Part shown: positions 13,560 through 64,000 of the stretch, piece after piece
Position numbering within the stretch: position 1 is the first letter of the stretch
How the letters are laid out: the number at the start of each line of letters is the position of its first letter
DNA from: Loxodes magnus
Taxonomy: Eukaryota > Ciliophora > Karyorelictea > Loxodida > Loxodidae
Direction: 5' to 3'
DNA: 64,000 nt
Assembly: GCA_946699065.1 (NCBI GenBank)
Contig: CAMPDV010000511.1
Span: 62,001-126,000, forward strand
Program-made: the position numbers and the translations under genes
Notes under the pieces: generated by a model
Told to the model about the DNA's origin: nothing
Seen by the model: only the letters and a program-made list of their open reading frames with translations
Database searches by the model: none

Positions 13560-16500
13560 AAAATAATATAGAAGCAGAGAATGATAGATAGGATGAAAGA
13601 AAGGTGGAGAAGGAAGATGAATAAAATGAAGAAAGTGGGATGAATCAGCAGAGGAGATGAGTGAAAAAAGAAGAATAAGGATAAGTCATAAAAATAGGGA
13701 CAGTAAATGTTAGGGGAGTTAGAAGTGCAAATGGGGCACATATCAAATTCATTGATTCAAAAAATCATCGTATAATGGCAATTTAAGAGATTTAGATTAA
13801 AGATTAAAAGATATGTGTAATATAGCAGGATATAGAAATAAATATATTCTATATTAGAAACGACATATTTAAGGAGATTAGAGAAATGTAGAATGAAATC
13901 AACCAAATGACGCTTTTTAGAGGAGCGAGAGTGATGGTCATTGAAATAATGAAAAAACTGACAGTAATAAATATATATACACCTGTGGCAAGAGACAGCT
14001 AATAATATGAGACATTCTATAACTTAGTGATCGAATTCAAACTATAAGCAACAGAAAAAAGACTTAATGTAATGATCATAGGAGATTAAAATATGCACAT
14101 AGAGTGGTTACCGAAGAAAACAAACTCACCTGGTAAGAGAATGCTACAGTTCATGGAACAGAATAATTTAATGTGCCTAGACCCATTGAAATAGGTACTT
14201 TTGTACACTAAAACAATGAATATAGAATAGATTACTTTTTAAATGAAGATATAATGAGAAAAATTGTGATAAAAAGTGATTTTTATTATTCATACGTAAT
14301 AGGAGATTATAGACCCGGTATAATAAAGGAAAAGATTGCTAAAGAAGTTAGAAAACCATTAAAAATAACAAAAATAAATTACCTACTATTAAAGAAAAAG
14401 AGATCTACAAAAAATTTGAAAGATTTATGCAAGAAATGTCATAGAAGAAGAAATTGATAACTACTAAACGGTACATAGACTTATAAATGATGAAAGAAAA
14501 AGACATAAGATATAAGAAGGAGTTTAAATGGTATGTACAACAGTTAAAATATAAAATTTAGGATATTTAAATACTCAGAAGCAACAAAATAATGTAATAA
14601 AAAATTCAGAAAACGTAGCAAACAAATAAAATAAAGGATAAAGAACAACGAAGAAATAAATGAAAATCAATAAAGCTAGAAATATAGAGAATATCAAAGA
14701 GTAAGACAAAAATAATTTAATCAAGAAAAAAAGATAAAAAAATTAACTTAACCTATTTATGGACAACGTAAATAAAGGAATCCTGAAAGAAATGTGGAAG
14801 AAACTAAAAAGCCTGCTTAATAGAAAAAATAATTAGTGAGTACCCTTATCAAAAGAAGATGTTAAGACTTTCAGGGACGAATGATAGCAGTTATATGAAG
14901 ATGGCGATAATATGATACTAAATAAATTATAAAGCAAGAGACAAATAATGATAAATGAATATGAAATTTGAGAAAACATTAACTAATTGGAGAAATAAAA
15001 GCACCAGGACCTGATGAAATATAAGTAGGAGCAATTTTAATAAGCGGGAAAAAATCAATTGAAGTAACTCGAAAAATAATAGCTAAGAAGATTTAAGAGG
15101 GAGTAATACCTTAGGAGATGAAATAATAATACATAAAATTAATATAAAAAAAAGGAGGATAGACGAACCCGATAAACTATAGACCAATCTCTTATTGAAT
15201 CATGCTTTAAAAATTGTAGACACTTGAGTTTTCTAGTCAATTGTAAGGATATCTACATAATGATGAAAGCGAATATTAATATGGTTTCAAAAAAGGTAAG
15301 TCATGAGACTATGAATCTTCAATCTAAGAACAGTATAGGAATAATCAATGCGGAACAAAAAAGATGTTTTTGTAATGCTTGTTAATATTAAGAAAGATTA
15401 TGAATCAGTGTAAAGAAGATATATGAGAAATCCTAAACAATCTAAAAGTACAGGAATAGATAATTAAACTTCTAGAAAACTTCTTCAGCGAAGAAGAAAT
15501 TAAACTGAAATTTAATGATTAAATAGCAAAATCATTCGCGACAAATAAAGGGCTAAAACAGGGAAGCATAGCGTCGATGAGATTATTTAGCTTGATAATA
15601 GCAAACTTTTCCATAGCTTGGAAGATTAAAAGCTAGGAATTACGATAGACTATAAAAATGAAGAGGGATGAACATAAGAAATATATGTAGGATGTTTTGC
15701 ATATGCAGATAACCTACCCTTAATAAGTGAATGGGAATAATTAGAGGAAGTAATAGAAAATTTAACCTAATGGGCAGAAAAGATAAATTGGAAATTGCAG
15801 ATAAAGCAAAATGAATAGTGTGAAAATCAGCAGAAAATAGTAACTGAGAAAGTATTGGAAATACTATTGAGATGGGAAATTTATGGATCGAAAGAGTTAC
15901 GACCTTTTAGTACCTAGGTCATATAATAGAAGAGAACATCAGTTTTGAAAAACACATGGAGCTAGACTAGAAGCAGCATAAAAATGCATGAATATTGGAA
16001 AAAATAGCAATGAATAAGGGATTAACACCATATAATGAAGAATAATGATAAAATCCTTCGTAAGCTCAGTTTTCAGTTATGGGACAGAAGTGATCTCATA
16101 TTGCGAATAATTTGTAGGAAAATAAATAATGGAGAAATTAGAAATATTATAGAGAAGGTCTTTACGAATAATCATAGATACCCCTTTTTAAGTGCAAAAT
16201 GAGATGTTAGAACATGAATTGCAGTTTATGAAATTTAAGCATTATCTATGACAAAAAATGCTGAGATTAAGAGGCAAATTAATAGGAAACTAAAGAAAAA
16301 AGTAGACGGAATAATGATCGACCTAAGTAAAGAAGAGAATTTTATATATGAAAAATATTGCACAGCAATAAAATTAGAATTAAAAGTTGAAGACAAAGAA
16401 ATATTTATAGATGATGCAGCAATTAAAAAGGAAAGAAAAACACTAATCGTGTAATATGAGAATATAGAGTATACGTAGAAGATAGAGAAAGAATGGAGTA

Positions 16501-19297: not shown

Positions 19298-19371
19298 CGC
19301 CACCGGGTGGACTTGAACCACCGACCTTTTGGTTAACAGCCAAACGCTCTAACCTATTGAGCTACGGAGGC
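19298..19371 (-). tRNA. tRNA-Asn (anticodon GUU)
   Basis: The minus strand gives a full cloverleaf: acceptor GCCTCCG, D-arm with TAGCTCAATAGG, anticodon arm TTGGCTGTTAACCAA with GTT, T-arm GGTGGTTCAAGTCCACC, and discriminator G. A run of T (plus-strand A at 19,292-19,297) directly follows as Pol III terminator. The fourth acceptor pair is U-U, the only irregular pair seen. The length is 74 nt before CCA addition. No intron. Confidence 0.92.
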
Positions 19372-37620: not shown

Positions 37621-37675
37621 CTTTTTTATCTATTGTTTTCTTTTTTCAGATTTCACAATATTTATCGCTCTTTTT

Positions 37676-37829
37676 ACATTTTCAATCTTATATCATTTTA
37701 CTATTTTCAATCTTATATCATTTTACTATTTTCAATCTTATATCATTTTACTATTTTCAATCTTATATCATTTTACTATTTTCAATCTTATATCATTTTA
37801 CTATTTTCAATCTTATATCATTTTACTTT
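37676..37829. repeat. 25-bp tandem repeat, about 6 copies
   Basis: TATCATTTTACTATTTTCAA plus TCTTA is repeated head to tail with almost no change. It sits upstream of the minus-strand gene that ends near 36.8 kb. Confidence 0.9.
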
Positions 37830-45076: not shown

Positions 45077-48000
45077 ATGTTACAAAATACATTTATAGAA
45101 AAATTCTAAGAAAGTAAATTTTAAAACCAAAAAACTCTACAAGGACATAAAGATTGTATTACCAACGTTACCTTCAGTCCTGATGGAAATACTCTCGCTA
45201 GCTCCTCATATGATAACACCATCAAACTGTGAAACCTACAAACTCATTTAGAAATTATCACTCTGCAAGGACATAAAGATTGTGTTACCAACGTTAGTTT
45301 CAGTCCTGATGGAAATACACTCGCTAGCTCCTCAGATGATGAGACTATCAAACTGTGAAATCTACAAACTCATAAATAAATTATAACTCTGCAAGGACAT
45401 TCAAGTTATGTTACCGACGTTACCTTCAGTCCTGATGGAAATACACTCGCTAGCTCCTCATATGATAAAACTATCAAGCTCTGAAACCTACAAACTCATC
45501 AAGAAATTATCACTCTACAAGGACATTCAAGTTCTGTTACCAACGTTATCTTCAGTCCTGATGGAAATACTCTCGCTAGCTCATCAAGAGATAAAACTAT
45601 CAAGCTCTGAAACCTACAAACTCATCAAGAAATTATCACTCTGCAAGGACATTCAAGTTATGTTACCGACGTTACCTTCAGTCCTGATGGAAATACTCTC
45701 GCTAGCTGCTCATAAGATAAAACTATCAAGCTCTGAAACTTAAAAACTTATCAAGAAATTATAACTCTGCAAGGACATAAAGATTGTGTTACCAATGTAA
45801 CCTTCAGTCCTGATGGAAATACACTCGCTAGCTCCTCATAAGATAAAACTATCAAACTGTGAAATCTACAAACTTATCAAAAAATTATCACTCTACAAGG
45901 ACATTCAAGTTCTGTTACAGACGTTAGTTTCAGTCCTGATGGAAATTCACTCGCTAGCTCCTCATAAGATAAAACTATCAAAATGTGAAGCCTAAAAATT
46001 AATTTAGAAATTATCACTCTACAAGGACATTCAAGTTCTGTTAACAACGTTACCTTCAGTCCTGATGGAAATACTCTCGCTAGCTCCTCATATGATAGCA
46101 CCATCAAACTGTGAAACCTACAAACTCATCAAGAAATTATCACTCTACAAGGACATTCAAGTTATGTTACCAATGTTACCTTCAGTCCTGATGGAAATTC
46201 ACTCGCTAGCTCCTCATATGATAAAACCATCAAACTCTGAAACCTACAAACTCATCAAGAAATTATCACTCTGCAAGGACATAAAGAATGAATTACAAAC
46301 GTTACCTTCAGTCCTGATGGAAATACACTCGCTAGCTCCTCATAAGATAAAACTATCAAGCTCTGAAACTTAAAAACTTATCAAGAAATTATCACTCTGC
46401 AAGGACATAAAGATTGTGTTACCAATGTTACCTTCAGTCCTGATGGAAATACACTCGCTAGCTCTTCATATGATGAGACTATCAAACTCTGAAATTTACA
46501 AACTCATAAAGAAATTATCACTCTACAAGGACATTCAAGTTTTGTTACCAATGTTACCTTCAGTCCTGATGGAAATACACTCGCTAGCTCCTCATAAGAT
46601 AAAACTATCAAACTGTGAAATCTACAAACTCATTTAGAAATTACCACTCTACAAGGACATTCAAGTTCTGTTAACAACGTTACCTTCAGTCCTGATGGAA
46701 ATACTCTTGCTAGCTCCTCAAGAGATGAGACTATCAAACTGTGAAATCTACAAACTCATAAAGAAATTATAACTCTAAAAGGACATTCAAGTTTTGTTAC
46801 CAATGTTACCTTCAGTCCTGATGGAAATACACTCGCTAGCTCCTCATAAGATAAAACTATCAAATTGTGAAATTTACAAACTCATCAAGAAATTATAACT
46901 CTGCAAGGACATTCAAGTTCTGTTAACAACGTTACCTTCAGTCCTGATGGAAATACTCTCGCTAGCTCCTCAAGAGATGAGACTATCAAACTGTGAAATC
47001 TACAAACTCATCATGAAATTATCACTCTGCAAGGACATTCAAGTTATGTTACCGACGTTACCTTCAGTCCTGATGGAAATACTCTCGCTAGCTGCTCATA
47101 AGATAAAACTATCAAGCTCTGAAACTTAAAAACTTATCAAGAAATTATAACTCTGCAAGGACATTCAAGTTCTGTTACCAATGTTACCTTCAGTCCTGAT
47201 GGAAATACACTCGCTAGCTCCTCATAAGATAAAACTATCAAACTGTGAAATCTACAAACTTATCAAGAAATTATCACTCTACAAGGACATTCAAGTTCTG
47301 TTACAGACGTTAGTTTCAGTCCTGATGGAAATACACTCGCTAGCTCCTCATAAGATAAAACTATCAAACTCTGAAACCTACAAACTCATTTAGAAATTAT
47401 CACTCTGCAAGGACATAAAGATTGTGTTACCAACGTTACCTTCAGTCCTGATGGAAATACTCTCGCTAGCTCCTCATATGATAGCACCATCAAACTGTGA
47501 AACCTACAAACTCATTTAGAAATTATCACTCTACAAGGACATAAAGATTGTGTTACCAATGTTACCTTCAGTCCTGATGGAAATACTCTCGCTAGCTCCT
47601 CATAAGATAAAACTATCAAACTCTGAAATCTACAAACTCATTTAGAAATTACCACTCTACAAGGACATTCAAATTCTGTTAGCAACGTTACCTTCAGTCC
47701 TGATGGAAATACTCTCGCTAGCTCCTCAGATGATAATACTATCAAATTCTGGAATCTTGCGGTTTTTTATTCTCGATTTTCTTAACTCTTTTCAAGTTTT
47801 CCAAAATCTACTTCTAGATATTTATTTCTGTTTGACCTTTATTTTATTCCTTTATAATATGATTCTATGCTCAACATAGTTTCTACTTTATAAAGTTTGC
47901 TTTTAGGAAACTTTGCATTTTTTTCGACATGAAATTGCTAGTTTACTTATTTTTTATTCACCCCTCTTCATTTTTGTTGCTATTTAGGATAGACTTAATT

Positions 48001-49861
48001 TTTTAAATAAGTATTTAAAGAAACCTAAATATCTTTACTTGCTGATATTTTCGGTCATTCGCCTCTTTTTTACTCGATATTTTATTAACATCAAAGTACT
48101 ACTGATTTACTCTTGGAATACTTTTATTAACTTGAAGAAATTGACTTTATGGTCGCAAGAAATACTTATTAATCTTTATAACTTGATTTTACTGATATTA
48201 TACGCAATTCTTCTACTTTTTTAAACAACTTACTTAGCAACATTCTTTACTTCAACAAAAAACTGCGATAATTTCTTTATGTTGAGTTTGATTAACGTAT
48301 TAAATTCTCTGATTTTGCTGATTAAAGCTTTGAGTTATTTAAATAGCAAAGTTCTTTACCTAACTAATAATAAAATACTAGTTAATAAAATTTATCTCCA
48401 GAAACTATTTCTCAAATTGACGAATAATCTAAATAACATCTTAAAATATCTACATCTTGATTCCAATTTCCTTCTGTTGTGGGATCTGCTTAAAGCCTTG
48501 AATTATTGAAATCCTTCTTGGACTCTAAAGATAAAGATTTATACAAACATAAAATAATAAGAAGTTATATTAATTTAAAGTGAAATAGCTTATGATATGT
48601 AATCTTTGGCTTTTCTTGCTTGATATGATTTAATTTATTCCTTATTGTCACTTTGATAATTCAGCCTTTTTGCTTTTTTTACCTTACCTTGATTTTATTG
48701 GTGCTAATAAATGCTTGCTTGCTTGCTTGGGAATTTCTTTAAATTAAAGTAACTAGATTAGACTATTTTAAGGATGCTTGGAATATAATTGATATTACTA
48801 GAATAATTTGTATAGTTCCATGGATATTTTTCTGCGCTTTAGATATCTAAATAGAAACATTTAACTGAATTTTTCTACTGCTGAACGTATTACGAGGAAT
48901 TACGGCTTTTAGATCATTTGACGAAACAAGATATTACATAAAGCTGATTTTAGATTCCTTTTACAGAATAAGATACTTCCTTGCAATAATGGTTTACACC
49001 ACACTAGCATTTGGCCTTCTATATATTACAGCAAAAGGTGAAGAAATTTCATTTAAAAGCTTATGAATTTCATCTTTTGATTTGATAACAGGAGAATCAG
49101 GAGAATTTGATAGGGAAGGATTGGATATAATGTATATCACATTCCTATTAGCTGTTATTTTAAATGTAGTTATAATGCTTAATATGATAATCTCTATTCT
49201 AGGAGATTCCTTTGATGAGTTTTAAATTTAGCAAGTCTATTATGACTATAGAGAAAAGACTTCAATTCTTCTTGAGATAGAACAGATCACTTCATTATGA
49301 AAACCAGAAAATAAAGATCAATATCTTCATATTTGCGATAATTACTATCAAGAAGAAGGTTTTGGATGGGAAGGAAAAGTTGCCGATGTAAGAGAGTGCA
49401 TCAAAAAGACTGAAGATAAAATAAACGAAAAAATTGATTAAAACTCAAAGAAATTAGATAATCTTGAAGGAAAGATTACTAAAATAGAATCTCATGAAGG
49501 AAAAAATAATACATCAAATTCTCTTGAGAAAACAGCAAAAAAAATAGAAAATATTAAAACTTAAACAAGTTCTATGGATGGAAAGATGAATTCTATGGAT
49601 GGAAAGATGAATTCTATGGATGGAAAGATGAATTCTATGGATGGAAAGATGAATTCTATTGAGGAGAAATTGAAAGAAATAGAAATTCTTAAGACCTAAA
49701 CAAGCTCTATGGATGGAAAGATGAATTCTATTGAGGAGAAATTGAAAGAAGTTGAACTTCTTAAAGTTCAAACTTGTTCTATCGATAAAAAGATGGACTC
49801 GCTTGAATTAAAACTGGACTCCCTTATTGGGCTGCTAAGTGCAAAGTCCTAAATAAATTGA
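45077..49861 (+). CDS. WD40-repeat / TRP-polycystin-like ion channel fusion
   Basis: One frame of 4,785 nt (1,594 residues) from ATG 45077 to TGA 49,859-49,861, with no need for introns. Residues about 20-901 are 21 WD40 repeats of exactly 42 residues (GH ... [28 protein letters not shown]). A linker with an ankyrin-like patch ([10 protein letters not shown], about 990) follows. Then comes a six-helix channel core: helices from about 1,170, [27 protein letters not shown], the pore-like [20 protein letters not shown] (about 1,325) and the last helix [15 protein letters not shown], as in TRP/polycystin channels. The C-terminus is a coiled coil with four SMDGKMN repeats. Likely a membrane cation channel with a cytosolic propeller scaffold. 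In 20 of 21 repeats the WD40 Trp is TGA. Confidence 0.88.
45134..47779 (+). repeat. 21 tandem 126-bp WD40-coding repeats
   Basis: The start of the first unit (45,134) and of the last (47,654) are 2,520 bp apart, exactly 20 x 126, so there is no indel in the array. Units are nearly identical at DNA level, including synonymous sites. Variation is confined to a few codons: KDC/SSY/SSS/SSF after GH, and Y/D/R/Q before D.TIKLW. The last unit alone has TGG for Trp and more private changes. Confidence 0.95.
49571..49654 (+). repeat. Four 21-bp repeats in the channel C-terminus
   Basis: TCTATGGATGGAAAGATGAA plus T repeated four times in frame, coding SMDGKMN. A fifth, separated copy lies near 49,708. 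They extend the coiled coil by heptad-sized steps. Confidence 0.9.
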
Positions 49862-50549: not shown

Positions 50550-51780
50550 CCTTTAGCTGTGTTATTTACATTTCTTTCAGTACCGATGAAACTTTATGCA
50601 CTAACTCTTATGATAACACGCCTATAAAATTCATAAACCTTAAAATTTCTTAAAATAAACATCATAATTAAGGACTTTAAAAAGTTTATCTTTCTACTTT
50701 TATCATGTATGAAAATATGCTAGCTAGCTCTTCAATCGGCAAGATTATCAAAATCTGATTAAAATAAATTATAGAAACTAACATCTCTAGGGTACTCATA
50801 AAATGTTATTGATCTAAAATAATTCAAATATAAGTTTTTTATATAGCGTTGCTAGTAAATATTGAAATCTTTAAATTCATGAAGAAATCAACAATCTAAA
50901 TATGTTACGATTCTCTATTTATGTTATTTCATTAAGATATATCTTCTCGTTTTCTTTTCAAATGAATCATTATCTACTTAAAATTTAAAAATTCATAAAG
51001 AAATAATTTATCTCTCATAGTATTTATCTTTTTTATCTGTTTTATTTTTAGCTCTGATGGATCTTGATTTGATATTTATTTCTCATTTGACTCTGATATC
51101 AAACTTTTAAACTATAAAAATTCTCATATCTAAGTAATTTATAACTCTACAACCATTGTAACCCTAATGAATTTATATTTCTAGCATTTAAATGATGTTT
51201 TTATCAAACTTTTCATCATTTAACTCATAATGAGATTTTCATTTTTAATTCTAATTTTTGTAAGATAAAAGGAACTTTTGAATTATGATGGATCTACACT
51301 AACAATCTATTGATTTCAATAGTATAAAATTTTTATATCTAAAAATAAAAAAAGACGTTTACTTTATATGTATATTAACTCAAGTCAATTAAATTTTAAA
51401 TTCCCGATGTATTTATACTCTCTTGCTCTTCCTTGTCAGAACTAATAAATATGAATCCTTTAAAATTATACTTAAATTTAAGTTTAAAGTATAATAATTA
51501 CAATTTTATTCGCTCTACTTTTAGACCAGATGGATTTTAATTTTATTGCTTTTCAAATGTGCTACTATTGAACTTTGTTAAAATAAATACTTAAAAATCT
51601 TCACTTTTGAAAAACATGAAGGTTATGTTATGTTTATTACTTTTAACTTTGATTGGTCTTCATCTAAAAGTTATTATAATGACAAAGTAAAGCAATTTTG
51701 AAATACAAAGATAACTCAAAAATTATCTAGAACTTCAAAGATAAAAGATATGAAAAAATTAAGAAACAAAACCTTAATTA
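50550..51780 (+). pseudogene. Decayed WD40-repeat array
   Basis: The first part reads FSTDETLCTNSYDNTPIKFI, clearly derived from the [20 protein letters not shown] unit of the gene upstream. A second unit has MLASSSIGKIIKIW (about 50,718-50,760). Weaker traces (DGS, FDSDIKLLN) recur to about 51.7 kb. Spacing and frame are broken by indels. It is the eroded remains of another member or of a larger array. Confidence 0.65.
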
Positions 51781-53510: not shown

Positions 53511-54041
53511 CAAAATAAAAATTCAACAATAATTAAATTAATAATTACCTTTTAAAGATCTAAAAAAAATTCATCAATTGAAGTGGAAATATGATTTAAA
53601 TCTACAGCCATAAAGTAATAAAAGCAACTTCAAATGATGATACAAAGCAAGTATTAAAAATCGACTAAAAAAAAAAATAAAATACTAGTCGTAACAGAAA
53701 AATATAAAAAATATAAAAAATATGGCTTTTAAGAGTCACTTAATTAAAATTGAAAACAAAATAAAAATAAACAAGTAAAAAAAATGATTCTCATTAAAAT
53801 TTTTCAGATTTTAAAATTAAAATCCAAAAAAAAAGGCAAAAATAAATATAAAAGTTTATTTTATTGAAACTTTTCAAAAAAAAATTGAAAAAAAATTAAA
53901 AAAAATGAAAATTTTTAATAAAATATTTTTTAAATAAGAAAAAAGACAAATCATTTAAAATATTTAAAAAAACTTAAAGAATTTTTAAAAAAACTTGTAA
54001 AAAAAAATAAAAATCATAGAGAAATACTTTGAGATAATAGA
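53511..54041. other. A-rich transition to the satellite
   Basis: Very A-rich on the plus strand with poly-A tracts; no gene seen. It leads into the first satellite unit without a sharp border. Confidence 0.5.
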
Positions 54042-57000
54042 AAGAAAGAAAAAGTAAATTTTAAAAGTGCAAAATAAAAAAAAAGAAGAGTAAAAAGTGT
54101 GATTTTGTAAATTAGAAGGAAGGTGTGAAATGAAAAAGTGGTTTTAGAATGAGAGAAAAAAGTAAGTTTTAAAAGTGCAAAATAAAAAAAAAGAAGAGTA
54201 AAAAGTGTGATTTTGTAATTTAGAAGGAAGGTGTGAAATGAAAAAGTGGTTTTAGAACGAGAGAAAAAAGTAAGTTTTAAAAGTGCAAAATAAAAAAAAA
54301 GAAGAGTAAAAGTGTGATTTTGTAAATTAGAAGGAAGGTGTGAAATGAAAAAGTGGTTTTAGAATGAGAGAAAAAATTAAATTTTAAAAATTCAAAATAA
54401 AAAAAAAGAAGAGTAAAAGTGTGATTTTGTAAATTAGAAGGAAGGTGTGAAATGAAAAAGTGGTTTTAGAACGAGAGAAAAAAGTAAGTTTTAAAAGTGC
54501 AAAATAAAAAAAAAGAAGAGTAAAAGTGTGATTTTGTAAATTAGAAGGAAGGTGTGAAATGAAAAAGTGGTTTTAGAATGAGAGAAGAAAGTAAATTTTA
54601 AAAGTGCAAAATAAAAAAAAAGAAGAGTAAAAGTGTGATTTTGTAAATTAGAAGGAAGGTGTGAAATGAAAAAGTAGTTTTAGAATGAGAGAAAAAATTA
54701 AATTTTAAAAGTTCAAAATAAAAAAAGAAGAGTAAAAGTGTGATTTTGTAAATTAGAAGGAAGGTGTGAAATGAAAAAGTGGTTTTAGAATGAGAGAAAA
54801 AAGTAAGTTTTAAAAGTGCAAAATAAAAAAAAAGAAGAGTAAAAGTGTGATTTTGTAAATTAGAAGGAAGGTGTGAAATGAAAAAGTAGTTTTAGAATGA
54901 GAGAAAAAAGTAAATTTTAAAAGTGCAAAATAAAAAAAAAGAAGAGTAAAAGTGTGATTTTGTAAATTAGAAGGAAGGTGTGAAATGAAAAAGTGGTTTT
55001 AGAATGAGAGAAAAAATTAAATTTTAAAAGTGCAAAATAAAAAAAAAGAAGAGTAAAAAGTGTGATTTTGTAAATTAGAAGGAAGGTGTGAAATGAAAAA
55101 GTGGTTTTAGAATGAGAGAAAAAAGTAAGTTTTAAAAGTGCAAAATAAAAAAAAAGAAGAGTAAAAGTGTGATTTTGTAAATTAGAAGGAAGGTGTGAAA
55201 TGAAAAAGTGGTTTTAGAATGAGAGAAAAAATTAAATTTTAAAAATTCAAAATAAAAAAAGAAGAGTAAAAGTGTGATTTTGTAAATTAGAAGGAAGGTG
55301 TGAAATGAAAAAGTGGTTTTAGAACGAGAGAAAAAAGTAAATTTTAAAAGTGCAAAATAAAAAAAAAGAAGAGTAAAAGTGTGATTTTGTAAATTAGAAG
55401 GAAGGTGTGAAATGAAAAAGTGGTTTTAGAATGAGAGAAAAAATTAAATTTTAAAAATTCAAAATAAAAAAAAAGAAGAGTAAAAGTGTGATTTTGTAAA
55501 TTAGAAGGAAGGTGTGAAATGAAAAAGTGGTTTTAGAATGAGAGAAAAAATTAAATTTTAAAAATTCAAAATAAAAAAAAAGAAGAGTAAAAGTGTGATT
55601 TTGTAAATTAGAAGGAAGGTGTGAAATGAAAAAGTAGTTTTAGAATGAGAGAAAAAAGTAAGTTTTAAAAGTGCAAAATAAAAAAAAAGAAGAGTAAAAG
55701 TGTGATTTTGTAAATTAGAAGGAAGGTGTGAAATGAAAAAGTGGTTTTAGAATGAGAGAAAAAGTAAATTTTAAAAATTCAAAATAAAAAAAAAGAAGAG
55801 TAAAAGTGTGATTTTGTAAATTAGAAGGAAGGTGTGAAATGAAAAAGTGGTTTTAGAATGAGAGAAAAAAGTAAATTTTAAAAATTCAAAATAAAAAAAA
55901 AGAAGAGTAAAAGTGTGATTTTGTAAATTAGAAGGAAGGTGTGAAATGAAAAAGTAGTTTTAGAATGAGAGAAAAAAGTAAGTTTTAAAAGTGCAAAATA
56001 AAAAAAAAGAAGAGTAAAAGTGTGATTTTGTAAATTAGAAGGAAGGTGTGAAATGAAAAAGTGGTTTTAGAATGAGAGAAAAAAGTAAGTTTTAAAAGTG
56101 CAAAATAAAAAAAAAGAAGAGTAAAAGTGTGATTTTGTAAATTAGAAGGAAGGTGTGAAATGAAAAAGTGGTTTTAGAATGAGAGAAAAAATTAAATTTT
56201 AAAAGTTCAAAATAAAAAAAAAGAAGAGTAAAAGTGTGATTTTGTAAATTAGAAGGAAGGTGTGAAATGAAAAAGTGGTTTTAGAATGAGAGAAAAAATT
56301 AAATTTTAAAAGTGCAAAATAAAAAAAGAAGAGTAAAAGTGTGATTTTGTAAATTAGAAGGAAGGTGTGAAATGAAAAAGTGGTTTTAGAATGAGAGAAA
56401 AAAGTAAATTTTAAAAGTGCAAAATAAAAAAAGAAGAGTAAAAAGTGTGATTTTGTAAATTAGAAGGAAGGTGTGAAATGAAAAAGTGGTTTTAGAATGA
56501 GAGAAAAAAGTAAATTTTAAAAGTGCAAAATAAAAAAAAAGAAGAGTAAAAGTGTGATTTTGTAAATTAGAAGGAAGGTGTGAAATGAAAAAGTAGTTTT
56601 AGAATGAGAGAAAAAAGTAAATTTTAAAAGTGCAAAATAAAAAAAAAGAAGAGTAAAAGTGTGATTTTGTAAATTAGAAGGAAGGTGTGAAATGAAAAAG
56701 TGGTTTTAGAATGAGAGAAAAAAGTAAGTTTTAAAAGTGCAAAATAAAAAAAAAGAAGAGTAAAAAGTGTGATTTTGTAAATTAGAAGGAAGGTGTGAAA
56801 TGAAAAAGTGGTTTTAGAATGAGAGAAAAAAGTAAATTTTAAAAGTGCAAAATAAAAAAAGAAGAGTAAAAGTGTGATTTTGTAAATTAGAAGGAAGGTG
56901 TGAAATGAAAAAGTGGTTTTAGAATGAGAGAAAAAATTAAATTTTAAAAATTCAAAATAAAAAATAAAAAAAAAGAAGAGTAAAAAGTGTGATTTTGTAA

Positions 57001-60000
57001 ATTAGAAGGAAGGTGTGAAATGAAAAAGTGGTTTTAGAATGAGAGAAAAAATTAAGTTTTAAAAATTCAAAATAAAAAAAAAGAAGAGCAAAAAGTGTGA
57101 TTTTGTAAATTAGAAGGAAGGTGTGAAATGAAAAAGTGGTTTTAGAATGAGAGAAAAAATTAAATTTTAAAAGTTCAAAATAAAAAAAAAGAAGAGTAAA
57201 AGTGTGATTTTGTAAATTAGAAGGAAGGTGTGAAATGAAAAAGTGGTTTTAGAATGAGAGAAAAAATTAAATTTTAAAAATTCAAAATAAAAAAAAGAAG
57301 AGTAAAAGTGTGATTTTGTAAATTAGAAGGAAGGTGTGAAATGAAAAAGTAGTTTTAGAATGAGAGAAAAAAGTAAGTTTTAAAAGTTCAAAATAAAAAA
57401 AGAAGAGTAAAAGTGTGATTTTGTAAATTAGAAGGAAGGTGTGAAATGAAAAAGTAGTTTTAGAATGAGAGAAAAAAGTAAATTTTAAAAGTGCAAAATA
57501 AAAAAAAAGAAGAGTAAAAGTGTGATTTTGTAAATTAGAAGGAAGGTGTGAAAAAAAAGTAGTTTTAGAATGAGAGAAAAAAGTAAATTTTAAAAGTGCA
57601 AAATAAAAAAAAAGAAGAGTAAAAAGTGTGATTTTGTAAATTAGAAGGAAGGTGTGAAATGAAAAAGTGGTTTTAGAATGAGAGAAAAAATTAAGTTTTA
57701 AAAGTGCAAAATAAAAAAAAAGAAGAGTAAAAAGTGTGATTTTGTAAATTAGAAGGAAGGTGTGAAATGAAAAAGTAGTTTTAGAATGAGAGAAAAAATT
57801 AAATTTTAAAAATTCAAAATAAAAAAAAAGAAGAGTAAAAGTGTGATTTTGTAAATTAGAAGGAAGGTGTGAAATGAAAAAGTGGTTTTAGAATGAGAGA
57901 AAAAATTAAATTTTAAAAATTCAAAATAAAAAAAAAGAAGAGCAAAAGTGTGATTTTGTAAATTAGAAGGAAGGTGTGAAATGAAAAAGTAGTTTTAGAA
58001 TGAGAGAAAAAAGTAAGTTTTAAAAGTGCAAAATAAAAAAAAAGAAGAGTAAAAGTGTGATTTTGTAAATTAGAAGGAAGGTGTGAAATGAAAAAGTGGT
58101 TTTAGAATGAGAGAAAAAAGTAAATTTTAAAAGTGCAAAATAAAAAAAAAGAAGAGTAAAAGTGTGATTTTGTAAATTAGAAGGAAGGTGTGAAATGAAA
58201 AAGTGGTTTTAGAATGAGAGAAAAAATTAAATTTTAAAAGTGCAAAATAAAAAAAAAGAAGAGTAAAAGTGTGATTTTGTAAATTAGAAGGAAGGTGTGA
58301 AATGAAAAAGTGGTTTTAGAATGAGAGAAAAAATTAAATTTTAAAAATTCAAAATAAAAAAAAAGAAGAGTAAAAGTGTGATTTTGTAAATTAGAAGGAA
58401 GGTGTGAAATGAAAAAGTGGTTTTAGAATGAGAGAAAAAATTAAATTTTAAAAATTCAAAATAAAAAAAAAGAAGAGTAAAAGTGTGATTTTGTAAATTA
58501 GAAGGAAGGTGTGAAATGAAAAAGTGGTTTTAGAATGAGAGAAAAAATTAAATTTTAAAAATTCAAAATAAAAAAAAAGAAGAGTAAAAGTGTGATTTTG
58601 TAAATTAGAAGGAAGGTGTGAAATGAAAAAGTGGTTTTAGAATGAGAGAAAAAATTAAATTTTAAAAATTCAAAATAAAAAAAAAGAAGAGTAAAAGTGT
58701 GATTTTGTAAATTAGAAGGAAGGTGTGAAATGAAAAAGTGGTTTTAGAATGAGAGAAAAAATTAAATTTTAAAAATTCAAAATAAAAAAAAAGAAGAGCA
58801 AAAAGTGTGATTTTGTAAATTAGAAGGAAGGTGTGAAATGAAAAAGTAGTTTTAGAATGAGAGAAAAAAGTAAATTTTAAAAGTGCAAAATAAAAAAAGA
58901 AGAGTAAAAGTGTGATTTTGTAAATTAGAAGGAAGGTGTGAAATGAAAAAGTGGTTTTAGAATGAGAGAAAAAATTAAATTTTAAAAATTCAAAATAAAA
59001 AATAAAAAAAAAGAAGAGTAAAAAGTGTGATTTTGTAAATTAGAAGGAAGGTGTGAAATGAAAAAGTGGTTTTAGAACGAGAGAAAAAAGTAAGTTTTAA
59101 AAGTGCAAAATAAAAAAATAGAAGAGTAAAAGTGTGATTTTGTAAATTAGAAGGAAGGTGTGAAATGAAAAAGTGGTTTTAGAATGAGAGAAAAAATTAA
59201 ATTTTAAAAATTCAAAATAAAAAAAAAGAAGAGTAAAAGTGTGATTTTGTAAATTAGAAGGAAGGTGTGAAATGAAAAAGTGGTTTTAGAACGAGAGAAA
59301 AAAGTAAGTTTTAAAAGTGCAAAATAAAAAAATAGAAGAGTAAAAGTGTGATTTTGTAAATTAGAAGGAAGGTGTGAAATGAAAAAGTGGTTTTAGAATG
59401 AGAGAAGAAAGTAAATTTTAAAAGTGCAAAATAAAAAAAAAGAAGAGTAAAAGTGTGATTTTGTAAATTAGAAGGAAGGTGTGAAATGAAAAAGTAGTTT
59501 TAGAATGAGAGAAAAAATTAAATTTTAAAAATTCAAAATAAAAAAAAAGAAGAGCAAAAAGTGTGATTTTGTAAATTAGAAGGAAGGTGTGAAATGAAAA
59601 AGTGGTTTTAGAATGAGAGAAAAAATTAAATTTTAAAAATTCAAAATAAAAAAAAAGAAGAGCAAAAGTGTGATTTTGTAAATTAGAAGGAAGGTGTGAA
59701 ATGAAAAAGTGGTTTTAGAATGAGAGAAAAAAGTAAATTTTAAAAGTTCAAAATAAAAAAAGAAGAGTAAAAGTGTGATTTTGTAAATTAGAAGGAAGGT
59801 GTGAAATGAAAAAGTGGTTTTAGAATGAGAGAAAAAAGTAAATTTTAAAAGTTCAAAATAAAAAAAGAAGAGTAAAAGTGTGATTTTGTAAATTAGAAGG
59901 AAGGTGTGAAATGAAAAAGTGGTTTTAGAATGAGAGAAAAAAGTAAATTTTAAAAGTGCAAAATAAAAAAAAAGAAGAGTAAAAGTGTGATTTTGTAAAT

Positions 60001-63000
60001 TAGAAGGAAGGTGTGAAAAATAAAGTGGTTTTAGAATGAGAGAAAAAAGTAAATTTTAAAAGTGCAAAATAAAAAAAAAGAAGAGTAAAAAGTGTGATTT
60101 TGTAAATTAGAAGGAAGGTGTGAAATGAAAAAGTGGTTTTAGAATGAGAGAAAAAAGTAAATTTTAAAAGTGCAAAATAAAAAAAAAGAAGAGTAAAAGT
60201 GTGATTTTGTAAATTAGAAGGAAGGTGTGAAATGAAAAAGTAGTTTTAGAATGAGAGAAGAAAGTAAATTTTAAAAGTGCAAAATAAAAAAAAAGAAGAG
60301 TAAAAGTGTGATTTTGTAAATTAGAAGGAAGGTGTGAAATGAAAAAGTAGTTTTAGAATGAGAGAAAAAAGTAAGTTTTAAAAGTGCAAAATAAAAAAAG
60401 AAGAGTAAAAAGTGTGATTTTGTAAATTAGAAGGAAGGTGTGAAAAATAAAGTGGTTTTAGAACGAGAGAAAAAAGTAAGTTTTAAAAGTGCAAAATAAA
60501 AAAAAAGAAGAGTAAAAGTGTGATTTTGTAAATTAGAAGGAAGGTGTGAAATGAAAAAGTGGTTTTAGAATGAGAGAAAAAAGTAAATTTTAAAAGTGCA
60601 AAATAAAAAAAAAGAAGAGTAAAAAGTGTGATTTTGTAAATTAGAAGGAAGGTGTGAAAAATAAAGTGGTTTTAGAATGAGAGAAAAAATTAAGTTTTAA
60701 AAGTTCAAAATAAAAAAAAAGAAGAGTAAAAAGTGTGATTTTGTAAATTAGAAGGAAGGTGTGAAATGAAAAAGTAGTTTTAGAATGAGAGAAAAAAGTA
60801 AGTTTTAAAAGTGCAAAATAAAAAAAGAAGAGTAAAAGTGTGATTTTGTAAATTAGAAGGAAGGTGTGAAATGAAAAAGTGGTTTTAGAATGAGAGAAAA
60901 AATTAAATTTTAAAAAGTTCAAAATAAAAAATAAAAAAAAAGAAGAGTAAAAAGTGTGATTTTGTAAATTAGAAGGAAGGTGTGAAATGAAAAAGTGGTT
61001 TTAGAATGAGAGAAAAAAGTAAATTTTAAAAAGTGCAAAATAAAAAAAAAGAAGAGCAAAAAGTGTGATTTTGTAAATTAGAAGGAAGGTGTGAAATGAA
61101 AAAGTGGTTTTAGAATGAGAGAAAAAATTAAATTTTAAAAGTGCAAAATAAAAAAAAAGAAGAGTAAAAGTGTGATTTTGTAAATTAGAAGGAAGGTGTG
61201 AAATGAAAAAGTGGTTTTAGAATGAGAGAAAAAAGTAAATTTTAAAAGTGCAAAATAAAAAAAAAGAAGAGTAAAAGTGTGATTTTGTAAATTAGAAGGA
61301 AGGTGTGAAATGAAAAAGTAGTTTTAGAATGAGAGAAAAAAGTAAATTTTAAAAGTGCAAAATAAAAAAAGAAGAGTAAAAGTGTGATTTTGTAAATTAG
61401 AAGGAAGGTGTGAAATGAAAAAGTAGTTTTAGAATGAGAGAAAAAATTAAATTTTAAAAGTTCAAAATAAAAAATAAAAAAAAAGAAGAGTAAAAAGTGT
61501 GATTTTGTAAATTAGAAGGAAGGTGTGAAATGAAAAAGTGGTTTTAGAATGAGAGAAAAAAGTAAATTTTAAAAGTGCAAAATAAAAAAAAAGAAGAGTA
61601 AAAAGTGTGATTTTGTAAATTAGAAGGAAGGTGTGAAATGAAAAAGTAGTGGTTTTAGAATGAGAGAAAAAAGTAAGTTTTAAAAGTGCAAAATAAAAAA
61701 AAAGAAGAGTAAAAAGTGTGATTTTGTAAATTAGAAGGAAGGTGTGAAATGAAAAAGTAGTTTTAGAATGAGAGAAAAAAGTAAATTTTAAAAGTGCAAA
61801 ATAAAAAAAGAAGAGTAAAAGTGTGATTTTGTAAATTAGAAGGAAGGTGTGAAATGAAAAAGTAGTTTTAGAATGAGAGAAAAAAGTAAATTTTAAAAGT
61901 GCAAAATAAAAAATAAAAAAAAAGAAGAGTAAAAAGTGTGATTTTGTAAATTAGAAGGAAGGTGTGAAATGAAAAAGTGGTTTTAGAATGAGAGAAAAAA
62001 GTAAATTTTAAAAGTGCAAAATAAAAAAAAAGAAGAGTAAAAGTGTGATTTTGTAAATTAGAAGGAAGGTGTGAAATGAAAAAGTGGTTTTAGAATGAGA
62101 GAAAAAAGTAAATTTTAAAAGTGCAAAATAAAAAAAGAAGAGTAAAAGTGTGATTTTGTAAATTAGAAGGAAGGTGTGAAATGAAAAAGTGGTTTTAGAA
62201 TGAGAGAAAAAAGTAAATTTTAAAAGTGCAAAATAAAAAAAAAGAAGAGTAAAAAGTGTGATTTTGTAAATTAGAAGGAAGGTGTGAAATGAAAAAGTGG
62301 TTTTAGAATGAGAGAAAAAAGTAAATTTTAAAAGTGCAAAATAAAAAAAAAGAAGAGTAAAAGTGTGATTTTGTAAATTAGAAGGAAGGTGTGAAATGAA
62401 AAAGTAGTTTTAGAATGAGAGAAAAAAGTAAATTTTAAAAGTGCAAAATAAAAAATAAAAAAAAAGAAGAGTAAAAAGTGTGATTTTGTAAATTAGAAGG
62501 AAGGTGTGAAATGAAAAAGTGGTTTTAGAATGAGAGAAAAAAGTAAATTTTAAAAGTGCAAAATAAAAAAAAAGAAGAGTAAAAAGTGTGATTTTGTAAA
62601 TTAGAAGGAAGGTGTGAAATGAAAAAGTGGTTTTAGAATGAGAGAAAAAAGTAAATTTTAAAAATTGCAAAATAAAAAAAAGAAGAGTAAAAGTGTGATT
62701 TTGTAAATTAGAAGGAAGGTGTGAAATGAAAAAGTAGTTTTAGAATGAGAGAAAAAAGTAAATTTTAAAAGTGCAAAATAAAAAAAAAGAAGAGTAAAAG
62801 TGTGATTTTGTAAATTAGAAGGAAGGTGTGAAATGAAAAAGTGGTTTTAGAATGAGAGAAAAAAGTAAGTTTTAAAAGTGCAAAATAAAAAAAAAGAAGA
62901 GTAAAAAGTGTGATTTTGTAAATTAGAAGGAAGGTGTGAAATGAAAAAGTAGTTTTAGAATGAGAGAAAAAAGTAAATTTTAAAAGTGCAAAATAAAAAA

Positions 63001-64000
63001 AAAGAAGAGTAAAAAGTGTGATTTTGTAAATTAGAAGGAAGGTGTGAAATGAAAAAGTAGTTTTAGAATGAGAGAAAAAAGTAAGTTTTTAAAGTGCAAA
63101 ATAAAAAAAAAAAAAGAAGAGTAAAAGTGTGATTTTGTAAATTAGAAGGAAGGTGTGAAATGAAAAAAAGGTTTTAGAATGAGAGAAAAAAGTAAATTTT
63201 AAAAGTGCAAAATAAAAAAAAAGAAGAGTAAAAAGTGTGATTTTGTAATTTAGAAGGAAGGTGTGAAATGAAAAAGTGGTTTTAGAATGAGAGAAAAAAG
63301 TAAGTTTTAAAAGTGCAAAATAAAAAAAAAGAAGAGTAAAAGTGTGATTTTGTAAATTAGAAGGAAGGTGTGAAATGAAAAAGTAGTTTTAGAATGAGAG
63401 AAAAAAGTAAGTTTTAAAAGTGCAAAATAAAAAAAAAGAAGAGTAAAAAGTGTGATTTTGTAAATTAGAAGGAAGGTGTGAAATGAAAAAGTGGTTTTAG
63501 AATGAGAGAAAAAAGTAAATTTTAAAAGTGCAAAATAAAAAAAAAGAAGAGTAAAAGTGTGATTTTGTAAATTAGAAGGAAGGTGTGAAATGAAAAAGTA
63601 GTTTTAGAATGAGAGAAAAAAGTAAATTTTAAAAGTGCAAAATAAAAAAAAGAAGAGTAAAAGTGTGATTTTGTAAATTAGAAGGAAGGTGTGAAATGAA
63701 AAAGTGGTTTTAGAATGAGAGAAAAAAGTAAATTTTAAAAGTGCAAAATAAAAAAAAAGAAGAGTAAAAGTGTGATTTTGTAAATTAGAAGGAAGGTGTG
63801 AAATGAAAAAGTGGTTTTAGAATGAGAGAAAAAAGTAAATTTTAAAAGTGCAAAATAAAAAAAAAGAAGAGTAAAAAGTGTGATTTTGTAAATTAGAAGG
63901 AAGGTGTGAAATGAAAAAGTGGTTTTAGAATGAGAGAAAAAAGTAAATTTTAAAAGTGCAAAATAAAAAAAAAGAAGAGTAAAAGTGTGATTTTGTAAAT
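54042..64000 (+). repeat. Satellite array, unit about 107 bp, over 90 copies
   Basis: Head-to-tail units, each with GTGTGATTTTGTAAATTAGA, then AGGAAGGTGTGAAATGAAAA, then TTTTAGAA(T/C)GAGAGAA. Period is 107-108 bp, mostly changing through the length of A-runs; a few units carry an extra AATAAAAA block. Dividing the length by the period gives about 93 units. The array runs past the window end. The plus strand has only one or two C per unit. Common variants are GTGC/TTC and GTGG/GTAG. Minus-strand ORFs here are a by-product of the missing C on the plus strand. Confidence 0.97.

Follow-up and report, generated by a model that had tools for sequence, protein, structure and literature searches.

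The DNA analysed here is a stretch of 64,000 nucleotides from Loxodes magnus (positions 62001–126000 of contig CAMPDV010000511.1, hereafter contig C511; 'the window' throughout), and its forward strand carries, at window positions 45077..49861, a gene predicted to encode 21 WD40 units followed by ankyrin repeats, a six-helix membrane region with a pore helix, and a coiled coil. Searches of the genome (705,730,643 bases in 7843 contigs) place this gene in a family of at least 94 channel loci. Ten of these align with only part of the query, and some of the loci probably represent the two haplotypes of a single gene. The domain order, the family, the exchange of WD40 units, the preference for 21 of them and the surplus of non-synonymous change at a handful of their codons all emerge from sequence comparison, and the variable spots are largely shared with a fungal self/non-self receptor, which suggests by analogy a channel opened by a recognition event. 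With somewhat better than even confidence, we therefore favour the view that the gene is a member of a large family of predicted cation channel subunits, built as WD40 units (usually 21), ankyrin repeats, six-helix pore and coiled coil, that would be gated by recognition.

The gene, its domains and its family

Read with translation table 27, the gene starts at an ATG (45077) and encodes 1594 amino acids before a TGA stop. A short N-terminal tail (45077..45133), such as paralogs also have, precedes the WD40 array (45134..47761), whose units measure 42 amino acids (126 bp); 20 of them are full and end at 47653, while the truncated 21st fits the unit profile over residues 1–36 only. Tandem Repeats Finder reports 20.7 copies of period 126 with 0% indels at 45134–47746, and Pfam WD40 scores 21 stretches in the protein, with significant repeats among them (E = 9.4e-269), in agreement with an initial annotation, made from the sequence alone, of 21 units of 126 bp. 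Its description of the synonymous sites as near-identical did not hold. Over the 20 full units the pooled synonymous difference per site (pS) is 0.195 against a non-synonymous one (pN) of 0.091, mean pairwise nucleotide identity is 88.5%, pairs differ at 0 to 26 of 126 bases and only units 5 and 16 are identical, so that an argument from synonymous near-identity fails; median blade-to-blade identity at the amino-acid level is 0.83. The sister copy on contig C1786, whose linker and channel are almost without difference from those of C511, also has 21 units (with a 2-bp deletion in unit 7), which makes an assembly artefact in copy number, a concern raised by the same annotation, unlikely.

The layout first proposed, of array, channel and coil, is borne out in its parts but overlooked ankyrin repeats between array and channel. 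In the window protein these lie in the linker at 47945..48124, where Ank_2 is matched at E = 3.5e-4, under Pfam's own cut-off, and searching the PDB with a profile built from 20 members of the family retrieves ankyrin-repeat proteins, headed by designed ones, at E = 6.3e-15. The predicted membrane region of six helices and a pore helix (48533..49297) includes a match to Ion_trans (PF00520) at 48596–49231 (E = 7.8e-6; scores of 25.7 and 26.1 bits, the cut-off being 25), and Ion_trans was matched in all 11 family members scanned (E up to 1). The earlier label of TRP/polycystin-like channel is thus sustained as to the ion channel and not established as to its placement: in profile searches against these families two of the 11 members gave weak matches to PKD_channel (PF08016), the better at E = 0.019, and when the membrane part was run as a profile against the PDB, no solved channel was matched in sequence (E limit 10). 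Hydropathy places five segments above threshold in this region, two of them overlapping, and a low-confidence AlphaFold2 model arranges it as six long helices with a short one preceding the last. The C-terminal coiled-coil region (49370..49858) matches many coiled-coil models weakly in Pfam, NPV_P10 alone passing the cut-off, and contains 21-bp (heptad) tandem repeats at 49570–49659. The number of heptads varies even between close copies, with 155 residues to the conserved end in C511 and 162 in C1786, and coil length ranges from 93 to 238 residues across the 18 loci in which that end was located.

Loxodes magnus is reported to use table 27, in which TAA and TAG encode glutamine and TGA either tryptophan or stop (PMC11441545). 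Codon 33 of the unit, the WD40 tryptophan, is TGA in 20 of 20 full units of the window array, so the standard or the ciliate table would stop in each unit; ciliate table 6 was rejected for this gene, since a stop would fall inside every full unit. Because code 27 has no dedicated stop and leaves any frame open, an open frame was likewise rejected as evidence of a gene, and that evidence consists of homology, a fixed junction in paralogs and codon-level selection. The TGA at 49859..49861 was taken as the stop from three features: GC content is 0.299 in the coil but 0.173 in the 3' flank, the end motif is common to 18 of 30 loci searched for it, and the final in-frame TGA ahead of it lies at 49298, in line with a reported scarcity of coding TGA shortly upstream of stops (PMC11441545).

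The family was collected in two genome searches. The first, with the channel part, scored 79 among 919 first-look candidates, all at E = 3.2e-156 or better, and the second, with a diverged member as query, scored 79 among 566 and added 15 to the first list. A C-terminal motif pattern tried as a means of sizing the family proved too narrow, with 24 exact matches, five of which (C223:1833, C225, C308, C359:310017 and C580:202434) fall outside both protein searches. At 28 of 30 channel loci, 12–15 matches to the unit profile occur in the frame of the channel, nearly all in the 1.5 kb directly upstream (the counts include a few weak matches elsewhere, and the L013 array has a frame break); the exceptions are L018, with 2 units, and L026, with none in frame. 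Eight pairs of paralogs were compared over the membrane part: six give pN/pS of 0.07–0.48, and the other two, which are nearly identical, give 0.00. This fixed junction, together with the low ratios in the membrane part, supports array and channel as one conserved unit and one gene, in line with the initial annotation of the repeats as fused to the channel.

The same comparisons bear on the possibility that most of the family is decayed repeat DNA and that the gene in the window does not function, which we consider highly improbable. Broken copies do occur: the arrays of C150, C223, C1786 and C1163a are frame-shifted, and C13 is truncated and keeps 2 units. The window copy, however, has no frame break, and besides the constraint on the membrane part just described, pN/pS pooled over the units comes to 0.56 and drops to about 0.1 at several core codons. 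A 17-bp insert in C150 was considered as an intron and rejected, as it resembles a local duplication and lacks GT..AG; L082, being out of frame, was left out of alignment A5.

Exchange and diversification of the WD40 units

Among the paralog pairs compared, the order of units is kept only in the near-duplicate pairs C511/C1786 and C205a/C205b. In C2112/C306, units at the same place in the two arrays are 0.851 identical and units at other places 0.849, compared with 0.888 and 0.882 within the arrays; the corresponding values for C580b/C1371 are 0.910 and 0.908, again with higher values within arrays. Linker pS in these two pairs is only 0.156 and 0.056, and with order already lost at such low divergence the reshuffling of units is fast. 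Both pairs nevertheless keep 21 units despite the shuffled order. C511 and C1786 are in register at 21, and 12 of the 21 units differ by 0–1 bases, in contrast to 19 bases in unit 5, 25 in unit 7 and 12 in unit 16: a pattern of patchy, count-neutral replacement. Clean losses are also seen, of one unit in C275a (compared with C688) and of three in C275b (compared with C1186). The blades within arrays are in concerted evolution, and of the recent expansion or ongoing conversion first envisaged it is ongoing exchange that the shuffled paralogs and the patchy C511/C1786 replacement support. Median blade identity exceeds 0.60 in 35 of 37 arrays of at least 17 units (C691 and C110 stand at 0.57), 60% being the published threshold for a highly repetitive propeller (PMC9218822).

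Tests of lag and regularity used 21 of the 23 arrays with 21 units, leaving out C1786 and C205b. Unit similarity is independent of the distance between units, only lag 19, represented by one end pair per array, being low; since similarity by lag is about flat, an origin of the array by seven-unit duplication was rejected. Membrane-part pS lies below linker pS in all six pairs with enough differences, about 2- to 7-fold (e.g. 0.081 versus 0.250), which suggests that the channel part, too, is exchanged between paralogs.

Amino-acid change within the units was then expressed codon by codon as pN/pS against a pooled pS of 0.264, with bootstrap intervals over arrays. Of 38 counted arrays, 29 were used; C1786, C205b, C275a, C275b, C223, C150, C1163a and C260 were left out as near-duplicate, broken or incomplete, C13 with its 2 units lay outside the analysis, and the last, truncated unit of each array was dropped. 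Four codons exceed 1 with 95% intervals that exclude it, and they are the only ones to do so: codon 26 (1.91, 1.57–2.37), codon 8 (1.79, 1.52–2.17), codon 7 (1.78, 1.51–2.17) and codon 28 (1.31, 1.07–1.62). Codon 6 stands at 1.03, and apart from these five and codon 10 all codons are below 1, so both the confinement of variation to a few codons noticed earlier and an elevated ratio at those codons, which had been proposed for checking, are seen in the counts. The ratios are higher in the seven arrays whose pS is below 0.15, at 5.0 (codon 26), 4.6 (8), 4.2 (7), 2.6 (10), 2.3 (28) and 2.0 (6).

In HET-D and HET-E of Podospora anserina, codons 7, 9, 25 and 27 of the WD40 unit are reported to be positively selected; they flank the conserved codons 8 and 26 and sit on the propeller's top face (PMC1805685). 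With a shift of one position, aligned on V9 and D27 of the Loxodes unit, they correspond to codons 8, 10, 26 and 28 here. The alignment rests on the conserved fungal codons being V and D, which we take to be the case. All four lie within the six most variable codons of the Loxodes unit, codon 10 being the weakest, and three of them (8, 26 and 28) exceed 1 with intervals that exclude it whereas that of codon 10 includes it. By comparison with HET-D/HET-E, the variable codons would therefore lie on the top face of the WD40 propeller.

These ratios also help to judge an explanation in which the array is a scaffold or localisation arm, attached for example to the cytoskeleton or cilia, and its variable codons are merely unconstrained surface positions. 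WD40 propellers are common as scaffolds, and Foldseek matches of the array include axonemal doublet-microtubule chains. Relaxation alone, however, would give a ratio of about 1, whereas pN stands above pooled pS at codons 7, 8, 26 and 28 with intervals above 1, and codons 38 and 39, which likewise vary more than most, remain below 1; we find this explanation unlikely.

Blade number and the proposed mode of action

Units were counted at 38 of the at least 94 loci: 23 have 21, four have 22, three have 20 and two have 28, counts of 18, 17, 33 and 2 occur once each, and two arrays have at least 40 units and extend past the stretch of sequence examined. The broken or truncated loci among them are C1786 (21 units), C223 (22), C150 (17), C1163a (at least 40) and C13 (2). 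At the 32 complete, unbroken loci, 21 units are found in 22, 28 in two, 22 in three, 20 in three, and 18 and 33 once each. Since the loci are related and some are near-duplicates, no simple significance is claimed for the share with 21. The channels of C4200 (21 units) and C751b (28 units) are 91% alike.

Departures from 21 were placed on trees of the channel part. A tree of 24 rows requires 8 changes for 8 rows with other counts (C13, present in this tree, was left out of the count), and the eight departures fit separate changes at the tips, as reconstructed from the channel alignment. In trees of 23 rows, which omit C13, tips make up 38% of the length (36% on linker columns); at even rates the chance of all eight changes falling on tips is 0.0004 (linker columns 0.0003), and that of the six that remain without the broken C150 and C223 is 0.003 (linker columns 0.002), with the qualification that assembly errors would likewise land on tips. 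Fourteen further counted loci are in no tree. This distribution speaks to the idea that 21 was simply inherited and is kept by count-neutral gene conversion without selection for ring closure. The replacement of units in register between C511 and C1786, which left their number unchanged, is what that idea expects; however, the losses of one and three units in C275a and C275b, the longer arrays, the restriction of changes to tips and the varying length of the coil between copies stand against it, and we regard it as rather unlikely. With reshuffled arrays that mostly keep 21 units, rare ones that have 28, and apparently recent departures, the family would amount to a natural experiment on propeller closure.

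Deviations of units from the core consensus of their own array give an indication of where propellers might end. After the end units they peak at unit 14 (2.62) and unit 15 (2.14); the other inner units, with 7 and 8 set aside, average 1.12 (permutation p = 0.0014 for the maximum over all inner positions, a test that allows for the irregularity at 14/15 having been spotted beforehand). In an AlphaFold2 model of the array (predicted local distance difference test score, pLDDT, 73.6), confidence dips at residues 281–330 and 571–620, and the expected propeller boundaries are at 313 and 607. The closest likeness of the array in the PDB by Foldseek is 2ymu, a 'highly repetitive propeller' (56% identity), presumably the WRAP propeller Npun_R6612 of Nostoc. 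On this modelling the array is likely to form three seven-bladed propellers, as the initial annotation had supposed from the number alone; the preference for 21 and the boundary at 14/15 speak for that supposition, and the other unit counts and the boundary at 7/8 do not.

We postulate that the propellers are on the cytosolic side, where they would bind proteins or other ligands that differ between family members, and that binding would act through the ankyrin linker to open a tetrameric pore kept assembled by the coiled coil. Gene conversion that leaves the copy number unchanged would reshuffle the blades into new binding faces, and gains or losses that leave an incomplete ring would mostly be weeded out. 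A fuller version of this proposal is possible but doubtful: that the at least 94 loci provide NLR-like recognition wired to ion flux, their conversion-shuffled WD40 faces recognising variable self or non-self ligands and directly opening a cation channel, and their blade number (21, sometimes 28) being held by selection for ring closure.

Several observations weigh against a recognition-gated channel with closed propellers. First, the models are weak: that of the channel is poor (pLDDT 45.9; predicted TM-score, pTM, 0.27), and the array model, despite its dips near both expected boundaries, reaches a pTM of only 0.44, with low whole-chain TM-scores to 2ymu (0.29 and 0.44). Second, units 7 and 8 are not significantly raised in the regularity test on the 21 arrays (p = 0.21), and the same arrays show no 7-unit period in unit similarity. 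Third, unbroken arrays with 20, 22, 18 and 33 units exist, count-neutral conversion alone could keep the number at 21, and the trees cover 23 of the 38 counted loci, with C237 (22 units), C110 (20), C1870 (33) and C751b (28) outside them. Lastly, at codon 10 pN/pS is 1.12 with an interval that includes 1, and its pN is under the codon's own pS; codons 29 and 3 also reach 1.4 in the seven low-pS arrays; codon 7 is high here and absent from the four strongly selected HET codons; and pN/pS is a counting method, applied to units that convert one another.

Another explanation is a mechanosensory channel whose tether is formed by the propellers and ankyrin repeats, with the Mueller vesicle as one conceivable site. 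Six-helix channels that carry ankyrin repeats can be gated by mechanical force, as in NOMPC. The Mueller vesicle is described as acting as a gravity sensor in Loxodes (PMC10954788). A tether, however, predicts neither diversifying codons on a binding face nor so many diverged members, and we hold this to be improbable.

Known systems and other features of the window

On the sensor side the known systems nearest to this family are the HNWD receptors and the WRAP propellers. The HNWD genes HET-D, HET-E and HET-R of Podospora anserina, which encode NOD-like receptors, are similar in their 126-bp WD40 units, their high internal conservation, their concerted evolution within a gene family and their surplus of amino-acid replacements beside two conserved codons, and their receptors have been modelled as a double seven-bladed propeller (PMC1805685, PMC12222747). 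They differ in that HET and NACHT domains accompany the repeats and there is no channel, whereas in Loxodes the array is followed by ankyrin repeats and Ion_trans; active HNWD alleles, moreover, have 10–12 highly conserved repeats plus cryptic ones, in numbers that vary between strains, compared with mostly 21 here. In Pfam, scans of the linker and channel give ankyrin and Ion_trans only, with no NACHT or HET, and neither is among the best 25 of 45 families for the coil. The Loxodes protein, on its domain content, thus does not appear to be an HNWD receptor (no NACHT or HET), yet its putative sensor evolves much like HNWD sensors.

Bacterial WRAP propellers share the near-identical blades, and 14 of their blades fold as two sevens (PMC9218822). 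They sit on a STAND ATPase, and their blades are described as without synonymous changes (PMC9218822), unlike those of the window array with its appreciable pS. Polycystins share the Ion_trans superfamily and the faint PKD_channel resemblance noted above; no other polycystin domain appears in Pfam scans of the linker and channel. On the channel side the nearest known kind is the ankyrin-bearing TRP channels. In TRPA1, NOMPC and TRPC, ankyrin repeats are followed by six membrane helices and then by a coiled coil, the same order as in the Loxodes protein, whose membrane part differs from these channels in having no sequence match to a solved one. We know of no WD40 array in an ankyrin-bearing TRP channel. 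Nor did searches of the open-licence literature show a layout of WD40 array, ankyrin repeats and channel, the scope within which the initial claim of an undescribed layout stands; similar proteins of other ciliates may be annotated in eukaryotic protein databases, which lay outside it.

If the proposal holds, the family would unite shuffled, diversifying WD40 sensors, as in fungal HET genes and bacterial WRAP proteins, with six-helix cation channels, and a channel opened by recognition would be a single-celled counterpart, in compact form, to those immune receptors that themselves serve as channels. The published macronuclear assembly of Loxodes magnus comprises 706 Mbp from PacBio HiFi (circular consensus sequencing, CCS) reads, with 231 Mbp classed as low-complexity tandem repeats (PMC11441545). 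Our data suggest that WD40 arrays are a notable share of the tandem repeats in the genome and that repeat masking could hide protein-coding arrays in it.

Other WD40-coding sequence was noted along the way. Contig C1503 (L001–L008) carries a different 42-amino-acid WD40 unit, of the GHADSVLSIAISPDQKWIVSASYDKTIKVWDFQTGSCLRT type, from about 12.6 to 101.6 kb of its 104.6 kb, some 89 kb of satellite-like spread; GC content in these units is 0.38–0.46, TGG is commoner than TGA, and L001 at least shifts frame within its array. A genome-wide WD40 search returned 98,885 loose first-look candidates, of which 150 were scored, and is not a unit count. Downstream of the window gene, at about 50696–50773, lies a weak match to the WD40 unit (13 bits); weak matches occur downstream in C1786 and C1371 as well, and similar sequence was seen by eye in L012, L014 and L015.

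Elsewhere in the window, about 93 copies of a 107-bp satellite (95% matches) fill 54038–64000, up to the window end, and a 25-bp tandem repeat of 6.3 copies (99% matches) lies at 37672–37827. An open reading frame in table 6 at about 13661–14257 resembles, by eye, the endonuclease (Exo_endo_phos) of a LINE-type (long interspersed nuclear element) retroelement, and a tRNA-Asn(GTT) is encoded on the reverse strand at 19298–19371.

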